Below are positions 7,420 through 20,130 of a DNA stretch of 20,380 nt, piece after piece. A program made the translations under genes and the position numbers. The stretch's first letter is position 1. Each line of letters opens with the position of its first letter. The notes below the pieces were generated by a model, which was not told where the DNA came from, ran no database searches, and worked only from the letters and a program-made list of their open reading frames with translations. The DNA is taken from positions 1 through 20,380 of the IMG/VR virus record IMGVR_UViG_3300032323_000095, one strand, 5' to 3'. This DNA comes from a virus.

Positions 7420-8118
7420 ATGATCGTTTACATTATGGGAGGTCTGGGCAACCAGATGTTCCAATACGCAGCAGGATACGCAGTAGCTAAAACACTAGGA
7501 GAAACCCTAGAGTTGAATACTACTTTTTATCAAGACAACAAAAATAGACAATATGAACTAGGGGTTTTCCCTATATCGTTTCATGTAACAAATAATGTTG
7601 CAGAGCAGATACAGGAAAGACAGCATAGTTACCAAGAGATCACCAAGTCAGGAATGATGGTGGGATATTGGCAAAGTGAGAAATACTTTGACTTTGTAGA
7701 AGATGAGATCCGCAAGGAGTTTTATCTACCCAAGGCAGAGATAGACGATAACATGGTGGCAGTAACAGTCCGTAGAGGCGATTATTTGAGCCTACCAGAT
7801 GTTTTCGTACAGTTGGATGAGGCTTACTATAGGGAGGCTAGAAAGAACTTCCCTAACAGCGTTTTTGTGGTTTTCTCCGATGACCCTGAGTGGTGTGCAG
7901 AGAATCTAGAATGGGCTGATATGGTCATGCCTTGTAGCAATCCTGTGCAAGATTTAGCGTTGCTTTCTTCCTTTAAAAACCATATCATAGCGAATAGCTC
8001 GTATGGTTGGTGGGGTGCTTGGCTTGCTAAAGGAAACAAAGTAGTAGCACCAAAAAAGTGGTTCACCAATGGGCTAGACGATAGCGATATTATTCCTGAA
8101 AGGTGGATCAAACTGTGA
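7420..8118 (+). CDS. Alpha-1,2-fucosyltransferase-like enzyme (GT11)
   Basis: The 232-residue product has the GT11 motifs in order. These are GGLGNQMFQYAAG (residues 7-19), GYWQSEKYF (82-90), VRRGDY (117-122), FSDDPEW (152-158), SSFKNHIIANSSYGWWGAWL (183-202) and PKKWF. GT11 enzymes move L-fucose from GDP-fucose to a galactose residue. At the His of the usual HxRRGD motif there is a Thr (residue 116), and the chain is shorter than the typical 280-300 residues. No membrane segment is seen. ATG 7420 lies just behind a terminator with no visible ribosome site; a later ATG would remove the first beta strand. The gene overlaps the next at GTGA. The family call is strong; activity and acceptor are unproven. 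Confidence 0.9.
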   Translation: MIVYIMGGLGNQMFQYAAGYAVAKTLGETLELNTTFYQDNKNRQYELGVFPISFHVTNNVAEQIQERQHSYQEITKSGMMVGYWQSEKYFDFVEDEIRKEFYLPKAEIDDNMVAVTVRRGDYLSLPDVFVQLDEAYYREARKNFPNSVFVVFSDDPEWCAENLEWADMVMPCSNPVQDLALLSSFKNHIIANSSYGWWGAWLAKGNKVVAPKKWFTNGLDDSDIIPERWIKL

Positions 8119-8444
8119 AGAAATACCTAGAAACTGTAGATGGCGAGATTCGTACAGCATTATCGGATGGCGATGGTGGGATTATTATCCACTCCCAGAC
8201 CGATTTAACGGATTTTGCAGAGCATACAAAAGCGCAGTACAACAATAATCCTGGCAAAACAGGATGGTCAGGCGAAGTGTTTGACCCAAAGAACAAGATA
8301 GCAGAGTTACCCCTAGCAATTATTAATGATCTGAACGCTAAAGGCATTATGCGTGGCTTTCATATCCAAGACCCTAAAGCTCTTAAGAAATGGCTAAATG
8401 ACCCTGAAAACAGGGTATTTAGGACAAGAGGGGGTGAGGTATGA
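8115..8444 (+). CDS. Conserved phage protein of unknown function, 109 residues
   Basis: The preferred start is GTG 8115. It overlaps the fucosyltransferase stop as GTGA and lies eight bases behind AAGGTGG (8100-8106). An in-frame GTG at 8103 is less likely. The product shows IIIHSQTDLTDFAEHTKAQY, a GWSGEVF segment, AELPLAIINDLNAKGIMRGF and a C-terminal KKWLNDPENRVFRTRGGEV. The last stretch (WLND.....FRTR.G.V) recurs in small phage proteins next to connector genes, as I remember it. The function is unknown; a minor structural or assembly role is an inference from position. It overlaps the next gene at ATGA. Confidence 0.78.
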   Translation: MKKYLETVDGEIRTALSDGDGGIIIHSQTDLTDFAEHTKAQYNNNPGKTGWSGEVFDPKNKIAELPLAIINDLNAKGIMRGFHIQDPKALKKWLNDPENRVFRTRGGEV

Positions 8445-9076
8445 GAATCGCTATTTGTATCCCTGCTAGAGGGCAAATGGAGGTCGCTACAGCGTTTGAT
8501 TTGGTGGCGATGTGTGCTTATACCATTAAGACTACAAAACACGATATAGACCTGTTTACGAGTGCTGGAACGCTAATATTCGATCAGCGTAATAGCTTGG
8601 TAAAAACAGCCCTAGAAATAAAGGCAGACTATCTACTATTTGTAGATGCTGATATGAGGTTTCCAAAAGATACCTTAAAGATTTTAATGGCTCACGATAA
8701 AGATATTATCGGGGTCAACGCAACTACACGATCTGAGCCTGTTAAACCGACAGCTAAAAACTTTATTGTTAATCAAGATCAATCAGTAGATTGGCTGCCG
8801 ATCTATTCCAACGCAATGTCAGGAATCAGTAAAGCTGATGGCATTGGCTGTGGAGTAATGTTGGTTAAGACCAAAGTGTTTAAAGCAATGGAAGAACCCT
8901 ACTTCTACTTTGAACAACTTGGTAATAACAAAATACTAGGTGAGGATATTTACTTCTGCATTAAGGCAAAAGACGAAGGATTTGATACTTGGGTAGATCA
9001 CGATCTATCGAAAGGCATCCGGCACATCGGGCAGTATGTCTATGGCTGGGATAACATCGAAATACCAAAAGAGTAA
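8441..9076 (+). CDS. GT2-like glycosyltransferase (GT-A fold)
   Basis: The 211-residue product starts at ATG 8441, overlapping the previous stop and behind a GAGGGGGTGAGGT purine run. It has a nucleotide-sugar transferase layout: RIAICIPARGQ at the N-terminus, LIFDQRNSLVKTAL (residues 45-58), the metal-binding DAD at 69-71 in FVDADMRFP, GCGVMLVKTKVF (136-147), GED (167-169) and WVDHDLSKGIRHIG (184-197). These motifs are shared with phage GT-A enzymes annotated as family 2. It probably transfers a sugar to a virion or host acceptor; DNA-base glucosylation is possible, but no base-modifying gene is in view. It is separated from the fucosyltransferase by only one gene. Substrate and target are unknown. 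Confidence 0.82.
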   Translation: MRIAICIPARGQMEVATAFDLVAMCAYTIKTTKHDIDLFTSAGTLIFDQRNSLVKTALEIKADYLLFVDADMRFPKDTLKILMAHDKDIIGVNATTRSEPVKPTAKNFIVNQDQSVDWLPIYSNAMSGISKADGIGCGVMLVKTKVFKAMEEPYFYFEQLGNNKILGEDIYFCIKAKDEGFDTWVDHDLSKGIRHIGQYVYGWDNIEIPKE

Positions 9077-9084
9077 GAGAGATT

Positions 9085-9705
9085 ATGGCTTATACAAACT
9101 TTACCGATCTCAAAGCATCGGTGGCTAACTACTTAGGTCGATCTGACCTAACATCGGTTATCCCCGACTTTATTAGCTTTGCAGAGCTACGCATGGCTAG
9201 AGATTTACGCACTCGGCAGATGTTACAGTCAGCTACTGCGTTAACAGTAAGTGGTGATGGCAAAGTAGCCTTACCAACAAACTTCTTAGAGATTCGGGAT
9301 TTACATATCCAAGGCAACCCAAGATACCCCATTACTTATATGTCTCCTAGTACATTTACTAGGGATGCTCCGGCAGACGAGAGTGGCAAACCAATTTATT
9401 ACACAATTCTGGCAACCGAATTTGAGTTAGCACCAAAACCAGATACAGCGTATACATTGGAGATCCTCTACTATGCTAAACCTACTGTATTGTCTACTGG
9501 TAATGCAAGCAATGTATTTCTTGCTAATTATCCAGATGCTCTCCTCTATGCCTCTCTTTTAGAAGCAGAGCCGTACTTAATTAACGATGCAAGAAGTCAG
9601 ACATGGGCAACCTTGTACGACAGAGCAATTAAAAACATATCCGATGCAGATCAAAATGGCGAGTATTCGGGTGTTCCATTACAAATGCGCGTAACCTCAC
9701 GATAA
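9085..9705 (+). CDS. Head-tail adaptor protein (SU10 adaptor-like)
   Basis: The 206-residue product starts at ATG 9085 after AGAGAG. It begins with AYTNFTDLKASVANYLGRSD, then VIPDFISFAELRMARDLR. This helical start is typical of connector/adaptor proteins that bind below the portal (gp4/gp6/gp11-like roles). The middle is beta-rich: GKVALPTNFLEIRDLHI, YPITYMSP and YTLEILYYAKP. Helices follow (NYPDALLYASLLEAEPYL). The same pattern occurs in the SU10-type adaptor family. Position after the head genes and before the tail genes agrees. The adaptor would extend the portal and provide the docking site for tail parts. Confidence 0.8.
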   Translation: MAYTNFTDLKASVANYLGRSDLTSVIPDFISFAELRMARDLRTRQMLQSATALTVSGDGKVALPTNFLEIRDLHIQGNPRYPITYMSPSTFTRDAPADESGKPIYYTILATEFELAPKPDTAYTLEILYYAKPTVLSTGNASNVFLANYPDALLYASLLEAEPYLINDARSQTWATLYDRAIKNISDADQNGEYSGVPLQMRVTSR

Positions 9706-9714
9706 GGAAATATC

Positions 9715-10101
9715 ATGGCTGAAATGTCAAACTACCTAGAGAATGCACTTATTAATGCAACTCTACGAGCAACAACCTTTACCTCTCCTACAACAGTTTA
9801 TGTTGGTCTCTATACAGCAGATCCAACCGATGCTGGATCAGGTACAGAGGTAAGCGGTGGATCGTATGCTCGCCAATCAGCTACATTTGGTGCGCCTAGT
9901 AACGGAGTATCTACCACGACTGCTGATATTACTTTCCCACAATGTACTTCTAGTTGGGGAACAGTCAGCCATATTGGAATCTTAGATGCACTTACTACCG
10001 GCAACCTTTTGTATCACACACCCCTTACGACATCTAAGGCAATTGATACAGGCGATTTGTTTAAGATTGCATCAGGAAGTCTGACAGTAACATTGGCTTA
10101 A
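9715..10101 (+). CDS. Phage structural protein of the Gp80-like family
   Basis: The 128-residue product starts at ATG 9715 behind AAGGAAA (9704-9710). Its sequence runs NYLENALINATLR, then TVYVGLYTADPTDAGSGTEV, SYARQSATFG, ITFPQCTSSWGTVSHIGILD and LLYHTPLTT, ending in GSLTVTLA. This order is typical of a widespread small beta-rich phage family (Gp80-like), often annotated as tail fibre or minor tail protein. In this window it lies between the adaptor and a repeat fibre, so a tail or decoration role is likely. It is close to the usual family length. The exact position in the virion is unknown. Confidence 0.8.
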   Translation: MAEMSNYLENALINATLRATTFTSPTTVYVGLYTADPTDAGSGTEVSGGSYARQSATFGAPSNGVSTTTADITFPQCTSSWGTVSHIGILDALTTGNLLYHTPLTTSKAIDTGDLFKIASGSLTVTLA

Positions 10102-10102
10102 T

Positions 10103-10987
10103 ATGCCAGCAGATTACTGTGGCGCGTTCTCAATTGATAGCATAGATCAGTTTGGAACGCTTGAACAAATACTTATTTCGTTTGATGATCCAATATGGAA
10201 CTCACCTAACACTTGTATTCTGTATGGTGATGGATCGGTAACAGCTAACGCTAGTGCAGAAGCTGTTGGTATCAGGACAAGAGAAGGTGTAGGCTCAGTA
10301 ACAGCAGATGCTTCTGTTGTTGCAGTAGGACAAAAAACAAGTTTTGCTAGTGCAGACATAAGTGCAGATGCAACAGTAGTTGCTAATGGATCTGCTATCC
10401 GTACATCATCGGCAGACATAACAGCCAATGCCTCAGTAACAGCAGAAGCTGTAAGAGTATTGGTAGGCGAAGGAATAGTAAATGGAACAGCAACAGTTAA
10501 TGCAACAGGAAACGGAATACTGGTCGGATCTGCTACTGTCGATGCAGAAGCAAGTGTGGCAAGTACAGGTATTCGAGTTAGAACAGGTGATGCGACAATT
10601 ACAGGCAATGCTTCTGTGGAATCTGAGGCTGTTAGGCTTAGAACATCTACAGCAGAAATAACAGGCACAGCAACAGTAACAGCCCTAGGCGGTGTTGAAT
10701 ACGCTGGTGTGGCTATCATTGTTGCTAATGCGTATGTAGATGCACAAGCACAAGCAGTTTATTCTGCTAATGCAGTTATTACAGCAAATGCCACAGCAGT
10801 CGCAAGTGGTAATGTATTAGGCGATAATTGGACAGACGAGACAGCAGGATCAGAGGCTTGGACAGGTATATCAGCAAGCACTACAACATGGACAGCGGAG
10901 ACAGCAGGCTCAGAGTTTTGGACAGCTATTACAGCTACAACGACAACTTGGTCAAATATATCTAGCGGAAACTCACAATGGCAATAA
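10103..10987 (+). CDS. Repeat fibre protein: ten 20-residue repeats plus a Trp ladder
   Basis: The 294-residue product starts at ATG 10103. Residues 1-40 form a unique head (DQFGTLEQILISFDDPIW). Residues 41-240 are ten consecutive repeats of exactly 20 residues with no insertion or deletion. The pattern is roughly GsaxITAnASVxAxgxxxxx, with Ala fixed at the tenth position. Residues 241-294 keep the same period but carry Trp at 243, 253, 263, 273, 283 and 293, within TAETAGSEFWTAIT-like units. The composition is Ala/Thr/Val/Ser/Gly-rich with very few charges. This suggests a beta-solenoid or stacked beta-strand fibre. I do not recognise a named family. Its place between adaptor and nozzle genes suggests a tail or head-fibre component. 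The ATG of the next gene lies inside its 3' end (10-base overlap). Confidence 0.82.
   Translation: MPADYCGAFSIDSIDQFGTLEQILISFDDPIWNSPNTCILYGDGSVTANASAEAVGIRTREGVGSVTADASVVAVGQKTSFASADISADATVVANGSAIRTSSADITANASVTAEAVRVLVGEGIVNGTATVNATGNGILVGSATVDAEASVASTGIRVRTGDATITGNASVESEAVRLRTSTAEITGTATVTALGGVEYAGVAIIVANAYVDAQAQAVYSANAVITANATAVASGNVLGDNWTDETAGSEAWTGISASTTTWTAETAGSEFWTAITATTTTWSNISSGNSQWQ
10223..10822 (+). repeat. Ten degenerate 60-base tandem repeats inside the fibre gene
   Basis: The 20-residue protein repeats (residues 41-240) correspond to ten 60-base units in perfect register. The DNA copies have diverged while the protein pattern and spacing are kept, so they are old repeats under selection and not a fresh expansion. 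Confidence 0.85.
10823..10984 (+). repeat. C-terminal Trp repeats (60-base units with 30-base half-units)
   Basis: Two and a half further 60-base units follow in the same register and encode a Trp every ten residues. The DNA is here much more alike: 10829-10860 and 10889-10920 share most bases (TTGGACAG...GAGACAGCAGG.TCAGAG). This points to a more recent duplication than in the upstream repeats. Confidence 0.85.
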
Positions 10988-12417
10988 GTAGAATAAATTT
11001 CGGGGAGTGGACTCCAGATCAGCCAGGTATTACTAATGGTCTAAGACGAGCAGAGAATGTTTACTCTAAAGCAGTAGGCTATGGTTCTATTCCTACAGTA
11101 GTAGATTACTCGGCAGCAGCATCCGAAAACCTAAACAATGTTGTTGCAGGCAAGACAACGGCAGGAGCTACAACTGTATTTGCTGGTGGCTCTACAAAAC
11201 TATTTAAGTTAGATTCTGGCGATTTGTCATTAGACAATGTGTCTAAATCAGGTAATTACTCAACTCCTACAGATCAGCGTTGGAAGTTTACGCAGTTTGG
11301 TAATGTTATTGTTGCAGCTAACGGACAAGCAAAATTACAAGGATATAACTTAAACAGTTCATCTTTATTTGCAGACTTAGCAGCCGATGCACCAACAGCA
11401 CGATTTGTAACTGTAGTGCGAGACTTTGTAGTATCAGGCTATCAATCTAGTTATCCTAATAGAGTGCAATGGTCAGCATTGGGAGACGAGTCCTCTTGGA
11501 CAGCATCTGCTACGACCCAAGCAGACTTCCAAGATATTCCCGATGGTGGATCTGTAGTAGGTGTTACTGGTGGTGAATTTGGTCTAGTCTTTATGGATCG
11601 AGCAATCCATCGTATGTCTTATGTTGGTAGCCCACTTATATTCCAGTTTGACAATATCAGTCGTAACTTAGGATGTTATGAGGCTAACTCAATTATTCAG
11701 TATGGTGGCACATCGTTCTTTTTAGGAGACGATGGATTCTATGCTTGTGATGGTCAAAATGTAGTTCCAATCGGTAGCGAGAAAGTAAACAGATTCTTCT
11801 TTGATAATGTAGAAGAAAGCACTTTGTATCTTATGTCGGCTGCGGTAGATCCAATCAAGAAACTTATTATTTGGGCATACGCATCCAATAGTTCATCTAC
11901 TCCTGATAGTTTGTTAATCTACAATTACCAGACTCAACGATGGACTAGCGGTACAACCCATGTCGATAGAATTGCATCTACATCTACTCCTGCCGTTACT
12001 TTAGAAGGCATGGATGTCTATGGAAACCTAGACACCATTTTGACTAGCTTTGATAGCCGACTTTGGCTTGGTGGCAGACTGCTGTTAGCCGGTGTAGATG
12101 GTGCAAAGATTGTTACCTTTTCAGGTGCTAACGCTACAGCTTACATAGAAACAGGTGATATAGAAGTGCCAGGATCTACCTCATCTATTACATTAGTAAA
12201 ACCTACTGTTGAGGGTGGCTCTGGTAGCGTGGCTTTGCTATCTCGTAGGCTTTTAACAGAGTCCACAGTTTTTGGATCACAGACAGCAGCAGATGCCGAA
12301 AATAGAGTGTCTGTGCGTGGTGTTGGTCGCTATCATCGTCTACAATTAACCCCTACAGGTAGTTGGACATCAGCAGTCGGAATGGACATAGATTTAAGCC
12401 CTCTAGGAACTAGATAA
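10978..12417 (+). CDS. Tail nozzle / DNA-stabilisation-like protein
   Basis: The 479-residue product starts at ATG 10978 within the end of the fibre gene. It opens with RINFGEWTPDQPGITNGLRR, then AENVYSKAVGYGSIPTVVDY. This opening is typical of a podovirus tail protein family that resembles P22 gp10 and SU10-type nozzles. The rest alternates short beta segments with Gly/Asp turns, such as FAGGSTKLFKL, FGNVIVAANG, FVVSGYQS, VQWSALGDESSW, GLVFMDRAIHRMSYVG, IIQYGGTSFFLGDDGFYACD and LLIYNYQTQRWT. That fits a beta-propeller. Such proteins close the tail tip and hold packaged DNA until ejection. No enzymatic motif is seen. The family link is from remembered pattern; the beta-propeller assignment is an inference. 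Confidence 0.78.
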   Translation: MAISRINFGEWTPDQPGITNGLRRAENVYSKAVGYGSIPTVVDYSAAASENLNNVVAGKTTAGATTVFAGGSTKLFKLDSGDLSLDNVSKSGNYSTPTDQRWKFTQFGNVIVAANGQAKLQGYNLNSSSLFADLAADAPTARFVTVVRDFVVSGYQSSYPNRVQWSALGDESSWTASATTQADFQDIPDGGSVVGVTGGEFGLVFMDRAIHRMSYVGSPLIFQFDNISRNLGCYEANSIIQYGGTSFFLGDDGFYACDGQNVVPIGSEKVNRFFFDNVEESTLYLMSAAVDPIKKLIIWAYASNSSSTPDSLLIYNYQTQRWTSGTTHVDRIASTSTPAVTLEGMDVYGNLDTILTSFDSRLWLGGRLLLAGVDGAKIVTFSGANATAYIETGDIEVPGSTSSITLVKPTVEGGSGSVALLSRRLLTESTVFGSQTAADAENRVSVRGVGRYHRLQLTPTGSWTSAVGMDIDLSPLGTR

Positions 12418-18582: not shown

Positions 18583-20130
18583 ATGGCATATACAAAGTAT
18601 TCTCTAACCCCTGCTAATAACACAGCTACTCCTCCAGATGGCGCACCAGAGGGGATGTTACCTTCTGCGGTAAACGATACTATGCGCGATATGATGGCAC
18701 AGATCCGAGACTGTGGAGATGGTATTCGTGATGGCACATATACCATGACTGCACCCAAGATCACAGGTGGAACAATTACTGGCGCAACCTTAACAGGTAA
18801 TACCTTTACAAGTCCTGTTATTTCTGGTGGCTCGATTAACAATACACCTATCGGTGCTACAACAGCATCTACAGGTGCTTTTTCTACATTGTCTGCTACA
18901 GGCGCAACAACTTTTAGCGGTGCAACAGTAGTCTCTGGAAGCCTAACAGCTAATACTTTTTCTAGCTCTGGCGCAACAATTACTGGTGGCTCAGTATCAG
19001 GAATCACCGACCTAGCAATAGCCGATGGTGGTACAGGAGCATCTACAGCAGCAGCAGCTAGAACAAACCTAGGATTAGATGGTTTTGTTAACATGAAGAA
19101 CCGCATCATCAATGGTGCGATGGTGATTGACCAGCGTAATGCTGGTGCTAGTGTTACTGCAACAACTTCTAATTTATATACTTTAGATAGATGGCAATCT
19201 GTAGCTTCTGCTAGTTCTAAGTTTACAGTTCAACAAAATGCTGGTTCTGTTACACCGCCAGCAGGATTTACAAATTATCTTGGATGCACTTCTTCTGCCG
19301 CAACATCTTTGGGTGCAACAGACAATTATCAAATTGTGCAAACAATAGAAGGTTTTAATAGTGGTGACTTAGCATGGGGAACTGCTAATGCAAAGACAGT
19401 AACTCTATCTTTTTGGGTTTACAGTTCGCTAACAGGAACTTTTGGCGGTGCAATAACAAACTACAGTTTAAATCGTGGTTACCCTTTTACATTTAGCATT
19501 TCTTCTGCAAACACATGGGAATACAAAACAGTAACAATTACTGGTGACACAAGCGGTTCTTGGAATAACGGAACTAATAGCGGTGGAATTTGCTTGCGTT
19601 TTAGTCTTGGCACAGGCTCTACTTATAGTGGAACTGCTGGTGCTTGGGCTGGCTCGCAACTATTTTCAGCCACAGGAGCAACATCCGTAGTAGGAACAAA
19701 CGGAGCAACCTTCTATATCACAGGAGTTCAGCTAGAGGTAGGCTCTACAGCTACTAGCTTTGATTACAGACCTTATGGAACTGAGTTACAGCTTTGCCAA
19801 CGCTATTATCAAAAAACCTATGATGTTGGAACTGTTCCAGGCACAACCTATAACTTTGAATATGCTCCCCCAGCTACGGCAATAGGAACAGGAAACTTTG
19901 GTATGCCTTGCGGTAGGTCTTTTGTAGTTTCCATGAGGGCAACACCAACAATTACAACCTATGATGGTGATGGTAATGCTGGCAAGATTTCCCAATGGAG
20001 TGTTGGAAATAATCAAAGTTATGGCTCTGTTGGGGCAACACAAAACCAAATAACTGCTTTTGATTTTGGAAACAATACAACTTTTGGTAGGCAATTTCCT
20101 TTTGCTTTTGTAGCAAGTTCGGAGTTATAA
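18583..20130 (+). CDS. Tail fibre / receptor-binding protein
   Basis: The 515-residue product starts at ATG 18583 behind AAGGAAA. It has three parts. Residues 1-55 (AYTKYSLTPANNTATPPDGA and NDTMRDMMAQIRDCGDGIRD) are an anchor seen in other phage fibres. Residues 56-165 are Thr/Gly/Ser repeats (TGGTITGATLTGNTFTSPVI) ending in the collar-like ADGGTGASTAAAARTNLGL (147-165). The C-terminus starts at NRIINGAMVIDQRNAG (173-188) and contains TFYITGVQLEVGSTATSFDY and RPYGTELQLCQRYYQK, a beta-sandwich type often linked to carbohydrate binding in fibres. It probably binds the host surface. The small gene after it starts two bases beyond its stop. The fibre call is strong; the receptor is unknown. Confidence 0.88.
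   Translation: MAYTKYSLTPANNTATPPDGAPEGMLPSAVNDTMRDMMAQIRDCGDGIRDGTYTMTAPKITGGTITGATLTGNTFTSPVISGGSINNTPIGATTASTGAFSTLSATGATTFSGATVVSGSLTANTFSSSGATITGGSVSGITDLAIADGGTGASTAAAARTNLGLDGFVNMKNRIINGAMVIDQRNAGASVTATTSNLYTLDRWQSVASASSKFTVQQNAGSVTPPAGFTNYLGCTSSAATSLGATDNYQIVQTIEGFNSGDLAWGTANAKTVTLSFWVYSSLTGTFGGAITNYSLNRGYPFTFSISSANTWEYKTVTITGDTSGSWNNGTNSGGICLRFSLGTGSTYSGTAGAWAGSQLFSATGATSVVGTNGATFYITGVQLEVGSTATSFDYRPYGTELQLCQRYYQKTYDVGTVPGTTYNFEYAPPATAIGTGNFGMPCGRSFVVSMRATPTITTYDGDGNAGKISQWSVGNNQSYGSVGATQNQITAFDFGNNTTFGRQFPFAFVASSEL

Follow-up and report, generated by a model that had tools for sequence, protein, structure and literature searches.

A C-terminal tryptophan ladder linked to exchangeable tail fibres in an SU10/GP4-like podophage, most likely a fibre-docking tail

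The window analysed here, a stretch of 20,380 nucleotides of viral DNA (IMG/VR record IMGVR_UViG_3300032323_000095, positions 1 to 20,380), is a fragment of an SU10/GP4-like podophage. One of its genes encodes a protein that ends in a ladder of six tryptophans, and this ladder is linked to a set of exchangeable fibres for which it most likely forms a docking tail. In the reading that we favour with moderate confidence, this protein serves as the rope in a fibre of the bead-chain type, and its Trp ladder is the tail that docks the N-terminal tip of a trimeric fibre. The way in which fibres are fixed and exchanged in short-tailed phages has been solved for few phages. Among the products of the window, Pfam recognizes a portal protein (PF23899), a major capsid protein (PF17236), an adaptor (PF24175), and a homologue of the podophage GP4 protein gp80 (PF23140). 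The genes around the ladder and the parts of the ladder protein are as follows, in window positions:

9085..9705, + strand: SU10-type adaptor protein (Pfam PF24175, E 3.2e-36)
9715..10101, + strand: gp80 homologue, the proposed bead of a bead-chain fibre (PF23140, 'Podophage GP4 fiber I protein gp80', E 8.5e-50; PDB 8jou_a, E 2.8e-16)
10103..10987, + strand: rope protein with Trp ladder, 294 residues (open reading frame with 80 homologous loci; no Pfam or NCBIfam match)
10103..10228, + strand: N-terminal segment of the rope protein, residues 1-42, a possible virion anchor (AlphaFold2 pLDDT about 58-70, above that of the repeats)
10229..10828, + strand: ten 20-residue rope repeats, residues 43-242 (gap-free register; two short strands per unit predicted by AlphaFold2 at low confidence)
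10817..10828, + strand: cap LGDN just before the first Trp of the ladder, acidic at -2, as in ladders preceding class N fibres
10829..10984, + strand: Trp ladder, residues 243-294, the proposed fibre-docking tail (tests of spacing, conservation, and adjacency)
10978..12417, + strand: virion structural protein of the stabilization or presumptive 'nozzle' type (PHROG 3287, E 7.5e-76; related phages have a gene annotated 'stabilization protein' at this position)

The sequence of 8jou_a occurs in ten chains of PDB 8jou. Two glycosyltransferase-like genes (7420-8118 and 8441-9076; matches to Pfam Glyco_transf_11, E 1.6e-24, and Anp1, E 2.4e-10) are located within the virion block between the capsid and adaptor genes, and might modify glycans of the virion or of the host.

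The ladder protein contains seven Trp residues in all (32, 243, 253, 263, 273, 283, and 293). The six of the ladder, whose codons begin at 10829, 10859, 10889, 10919, 10949, and 10979, follow one another at exactly ten residues, as a first-pass annotation made from the sequence had observed, and the last of them is the penultimate residue of the protein. When the residues were shuffled 200,000 times, a chain of four Trp at this spacing arose in six shuffles and a chain of five or more in none. The ladder also stands in register with the upstream repeats, again as first described: the ladder, made of two complete units plus an incomplete third, follows ten 20-residue units without any indel. 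At the DNA level the two full ladder units (residues 243-262 and 263-282) share 78% identity, compared with a mean of 46% and a maximum of 60% among the rope units, which agrees with the earlier remark that they are more alike than the sequence upstream. Because full rungs of the same parity resemble each other in amino acid sequence (243/263, 80%; 253/273, 70%) and alternate rungs share only 20-50%, each repeat unit spans 20 residues and holds two Trp; the partial last unit no longer shows this same-parity resemblance. Over positions 10978-10987 the next gene, with its ATG at 10978, overlaps the final codons of the ladder protein (TGG CAA TAA). No Pfam or NCBIfam family covers the ladder protein, its sequence had no credible match in the PDB, and its one match among the PHROGs is weak and of unknown function (PHROG 31951). 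The first-pass annotation had treated the protein as a fibre; it is better called a rope or adaptor than a fibre tip.

A scan of viral contigs with the ladder protein found 95 relatives, 80 of which were kept as loci; one of these is cut before the ladder and was left out of the following counts. Of the remaining 79 homologues with a closed C-terminus, 74 carry all six Trp, the exceptions being four with Tyr at the second rung and one with four Trp, which is one 20-residue unit shorter. Two relatives that lack 80 residues of the repeats have retained six Trp. Since 74 of 79 keep the full set, the number of Trp in the near family is fixed, and the recent copy-number change that had been proposed from the similarity of the units is not seen among near relatives. 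The accompanying expectation that copy number varies between relatives holds for wider families, in which the number of Trp shifts by steps of 20 residues, and hardly for the nearest ones. Thus, 141 of 146 ladder genes from loci fetched by fibre motif (see below) have two, four, or six rungs, and none has more than six. Similarly, the last Trp is found at residue 13-16 modulo 20 in 96 of 107 unique MFG-type ropes, which places rope lengths on 20-residue steps between about 117 and 320 residues across phages. With rung counts nearly always even and the last Trp clustering modulo 20, both rope length and ladder vary in 20-residue units; this quantisation of the rope suggests a variable number of beads.

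The first-pass annotation had also suggested that a stack of indoles might lock a trimer. If the protein formed a trimer of its own, with the Trp residues stacked inside and either locking its own C-terminus or building a beta-solenoid, the in-register 20-residue repeats with their alternating small residues and the two low-confidence strands per unit would find a ready explanation. The structure models of the ladder may count against such an arrangement. AlphaFold2 gave low-confidence monomer models both for the window protein with 43 relatives (mean pLDDT 43.9; block means of 46-63 in the ladder) and for a class K ladder protein (classes K and N are defined below) with 21 sequences (mean pLDDT 43.5; 59-77 in the ladder), and neither showed any secondary structure in the ladder. 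A Foldseek search with the second model returned no fold match (best E 6.4, a value that is not meaningful at this confidence). We consider a self-trimer improbable. The docking reading accommodates a ladder modelled without strands, which weakly fits a tail that becomes ordered on its partner. The idea of a locked trimer was thus probably half right, in that a trimer is involved, but one formed by another protein, a fibre that is docked rather than a rope that locks itself.

The ladder is not private to the family of the window protein. A query that consisted of six TGG codons at 30-base steps and nothing else retrieved at least 120 stretches from viral contigs. Defining a C-terminal ladder as one that ends at most 12 residues from the stop of an open reading frame of at least 120 residues, such ladders were present in 51 of 120 loci among the matches listed. 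The proteins concerned include ones with other N-termini and other repeats, and the phages belong to unrelated hosts; this C-terminal module is widespread and as yet without a name. PHROG matches of these proteins are weak and of unknown function, and some carry misleading annotations (L323-L325 and L577: 'putative E3 ubiquitin-protein ligase HERC6', 'serine-rich adhesin', 'ribonuclease E'). No description of a tail with Trp at every tenth residue was found in the literature searched, largely papers available without subscription, and the available parts of PMC11784390, PMC11445458, and PMC9698820 held nothing bearing on the ladder. Bacterial genomes were tried as a further source of the phage-type module and rejected: they yielded at least 120 Trp-spaced stretches, and since the translations listed were mostly simple repeats or doubtful frames, this collection is uninformative for the phage module. 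One of them, in a 2136-residue open frame of Acinetobacter sp. WC-141 (L247), has six Trp at ten-residue steps (2522-2674, - strand; ...VWIDTSHYEEQWVASGYTDYIW...) that are internal and not C-terminal, unlike those of the phage tails.

Fibre genes next to ladders repeatedly encode one of two types of N-terminus, termed class K (MADTTTTNLxLTKPEVGASxDTWGxKLN...) and class N (...INIxEGCxPxxxNNAIRxLMAQIKD). Within the spacing-only set of at least 51 ladder genes, a fibre of one of these classes starts between -20 and +60 bp from the ladder stop in 31 of 51. Many of the other 20 ladder genes show a gene order like that of the window, with another virion gene next; their whole records, many of them short fragments, contain a class N fibre in two cases and a class K fibre in none. 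Of the 69 loci that lack a six-Trp ladder, only two, L153 and L162, possess a fibre of either class (K in both), and here ladders of three and four Trp lie directly upstream of the fibre gene. In the reverse direction, loci were fetched by the fibre motif alone, keeping 80 of 586 for class K and 80 of 558 for class N. Two or more ladder Trp are present in the immediately upstream gene in 71 of 79 K loci and 75 of 80 N loci, and three or more in 60 of 79 and 67 of 80, respectively (counts that include the four-Trp ladders directly upstream in L465 and L519 and leave out the K locus L491, which has no upstream gene). Other genes of at least 100 residues in the same loci have a ladder in two of 530 cases for K and none of 511 for N (2/1,041 together), and both positive genes are located one gene further upstream of a K fibre. 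Since both classes derive from fibres that were observed next to ladders, these figures are a measure of linkage and do not tell how common ladders are across fibres in general; the loci are moreover related to some degree, their rope sequences forming 25 K and nine N clusters. Among control records without a ladder, class N was found in none of 29 and class K in two of 29, in both cases weakly (E 8.9e-4 and 0.008, compared with 7e-30 in two positives).

Eleven records (six K, five N: L423, L428, L436, L442, L447, L470, L500, L501, L524, L537, and L549) have the fibre behind another gene, usually of the adaptor type, and no four-Trp ladder. As these records carry such fibres all the same, K and N fibres can probably attach without a ladder, and the eleven contigs may represent an alternative mode of attachment. 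No open reading frame in the collected loci contains both an internal ladder and a K or N motif, no homology was detected between the tips of the two classes, and PDB searches with the fibre tips and with the ladder profile gave nothing credible.

The same association is found in phage collections. Class K fibres occur in nine records (ten hits, one of them a duplicate record), and in seven of these the upstream gene has at least two rungs: phiM5 (Tyr-Trp-Trp-Trp), Octadecabacter DB virus 2 (six), Ochrobactrum phage OH (four), the uncultured phages ctvy9321 (six), ctyzp037 (six, with one step of nine), and ctjtQ328 (three), and Microcystis phage MJing1, whose two rungs lie about 24 residues from the end. 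No such pair of upstream rungs accompanies the class K fibre of Chlorobiaceae phage CV-1-33 or Tunturi_4. For class N, four Trp directly precede the fibre in Methylophilales phage Venkman and six in MW202481; MW202462 also has six, with the fibre further downstream. In the phiM5 record gp17 and gp19, the gp80 homologue and the K fibre, are marked as seen in virions and the ladder protein gp18 is unmarked, which counts against its being a stable part of the virion; gp18 is, however, a small protein and perhaps a scarce one.

In the window the candidate partner is encoded about 7.6 kb from the ladder:

18583..20130, + strand: tail fibre of class N, the predicted ladder partner (PHROG 4492 tail fiber, E 7.1e-51; class N HMM, E 2e-21, with the window sequence among the inputs of the HMM)
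18583..18732, + strand: class N N-terminal segment, residues 1-50, the predicted docking tip (hhalign comparison with A6, a class N profile that excludes the window sequence: probability 96.8, E 2.5e-10)

A class N fibre is present in 14 of 17 records of phages with the window-type ladder or related ones, and the whole window fibre was matched in all five records tested. In three of five relatives the N-terminal 67-72 residues are 82-96% identical, and beyond them the similarity is changed or missing. The same modularity is seen across the collected fibres, with one N-terminal cluster set against 22 C-terminal clusters in class K and ten in class N. That fibre N-termini are conserved for attachment is stated as a general point in the part of the source available to us (PMC10386132). 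As ladders nearly always adjoin a fibre gene with such a conserved front end, the ladder is probably a plug that holds the fibre on the virus.

These results also bear on the earlier proposal of a sugar-binding face. Regular rows of aromatic residues are common in carbohydrate-binding proteins, and a ladder that binds host glycans during adsorption would be in keeping with them. Neither the window protein nor nine other ladder proteins gave a credible match to a carbohydrate-binding family of the Pfam/NCBIfam type, and the two low-confidence monomer models show no secondary structure in the ladder. Moreover, among 44 unique tails the rungs are 99% conserved, compared with 67% for the other ladder sites. 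Ladders are also found in phages of unrelated hosts, where the adjoining fibres vary at their C-termini and not at their N-termini. The ladder follows the conserved fibre N-terminus instead of host-specific parts, and we regard a sugar-binding function as highly improbable.

The residues that precede the ladder differ with the class of the fibre. Position -2 before the first Trp is acidic in 72 of 75 ladders beside class N fibres, and position -1 is Lys in 66 of 92 ladders beside class K fibres. An Asp, Glu, or Gly at -1 occurs in 71 of 75 N cases and 14 of 92 K cases (Fisher p 1.9e-27, a value that treats related loci as independent). Within MFG-type ropes the acidic/Gly pair is found in 68 of 70 N and none of eight K ladders, these K cases representing few independent lineages. 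Cap residues thus go with the fibre class.

This association matters for a rival reading in which the ladder is the last, specialized stretch of the rope, binds beads (gp80 or a paralogue), and ends their chain, the fibre being linked to it only genetically. Such a bead-binding end would account for the fact that the ladder keeps the 20-residue register without a gap and itself comes in 20-residue units, and a ladder follows downstream in 70 of 93 loci anchored on gp80. It would not be expected to have caps that change with the fibre class, and linkage to the fibre gene, at a distance of up to about 60 bp, is commoner than linkage to a gp80 homologue: among loci having at least 3 kb of upstream DNA, such a homologue was found upstream in only 38 of 52 for class K and 24 of 65 for class N. 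We therefore judge the bead-binding reading rather unlikely. In many phages (L328-L417) further genes lie between the gp80 homologue and the ladder gene; their recurrent N-termini, MSTIVTRAGKGSPLT... and MALVVKDRVKETSTT..., are perhaps further docking classes.

According to the favoured docking reading, copies of the gp80 homologue would coat the ten 20-residue repeats of the rope in an SU10/GP4-like short-tailed phage. The ladder would act as a flexible tail and place its indoles, at regular intervals, in the N-terminal tip of the trimeric host-binding fibre, in the window presumably the class N fibre at 18583-20127, and the rope coated by gp80-type beads would end in a Trp strap that seizes this tip. 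Either one 20-residue unit would serve each protomer (three units, six Trp), in which case ladders of one or two units need another explanation, or one rung would serve each protomer over two turns; one rung per protomer as the sole rule is weakened by rung counts that are nearly always even. In this scheme we infer physical binding, the trimeric state of the fibre, the assembly of beads on the rope, the stoichiometry, and the identity of the distal end and thus the polarity. Against it counts that one mechanism is proposed for both K and N, yet the two classes have no detectable homology. The eleven ladderless records, the unmarked gp18 of phiM5, the 7.6-kb gap in the window, the relatedness of the loci, the low pLDDT, the even rung counts, and the lack of homology to the dock and fibre tip of SU10 (see below) weigh in the same direction.

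In its most general form, the proposal would amount to a docking code: a C-terminal Trp tail in 20-residue units (two, four, or six Trp, never eight in these sets), carried on length-quantised bead-chain ropes, would serve as the socket into which different trimeric fibres fit interchangeably, and its cap would be specific to the class (acidic for N, Lys for K). We put this forward tentatively, as possible rather than probable. If true, one asymmetric chain would hold a three-fold fibre, and the tail of the neighbouring protein would reveal the type of the fibre. If the ladder is a socket, a simple sequence rule would find rope-fibre pairs in many environmental phages.

Among known systems, the Ralstonia podophage GP4 offers the closest parallel for the rope. 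The bead gene of its fibre I has a homologue in the window (PF23140; 8jou_a), directly upstream of a protein with 20-residue repeats. A study of GP4 in J Mol Biol reportedly describes five fibres in which an elongated rope protein connects gp80 dimers. Bead-chain fibre I of the GP4 type attaches to the 15-fold fibre-tail adaptor. Burkholderia phage BcepMigl also has a gp80 homologue with an adjoining repeat protein, which lacks the Trp ladder and gave no credible match in a PDB search. The Anabaena myophage A-1(L) is described as carrying five bead-chain neck fibres per virion (PMC10966104). These consist of gp82, gp81, and gp80 of A-1(L) and are likened here by description; the available part of that paper does not mention a Trp ladder (PMC10966104).

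The parallel for the ladder is the dock of SU10, for which the available part of the source describes a loop in the nozzle protein gp17 with three Trp that surround the N-terminal tip of a trimeric fibre in pseudo-threefold symmetry, W839, W847, and W857 each contacting Ile24 of one protomer (PMC9509320). On the basis of that description, both systems place regularly spaced Trp on one chain, at steps of eight and ten residues in SU10 and strictly ten in the window. Unlike the SU10 dock, the window ladder forms the C-terminal tail of a separate 294-residue protein, and ladders of its kind carry two, four, or six Trp instead of three. With hhalign no homology was detected of the ladder to the SU10 dock loop (probability 0.2%), nor of class N to the fibre tip of SU10 (probability 0.1%), both comparisons using very short queries. 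To judge from the sequences, the ladder would be a module separate from the SU10 dock loop that resembles it. By analogy with this precedent, the simplest reading would be the same kind of Trp contact on a dedicated tail; if the ladder is indeed a socket, it would provide a second example, beyond SU10, of a symmetry mismatch mediated by Trp.
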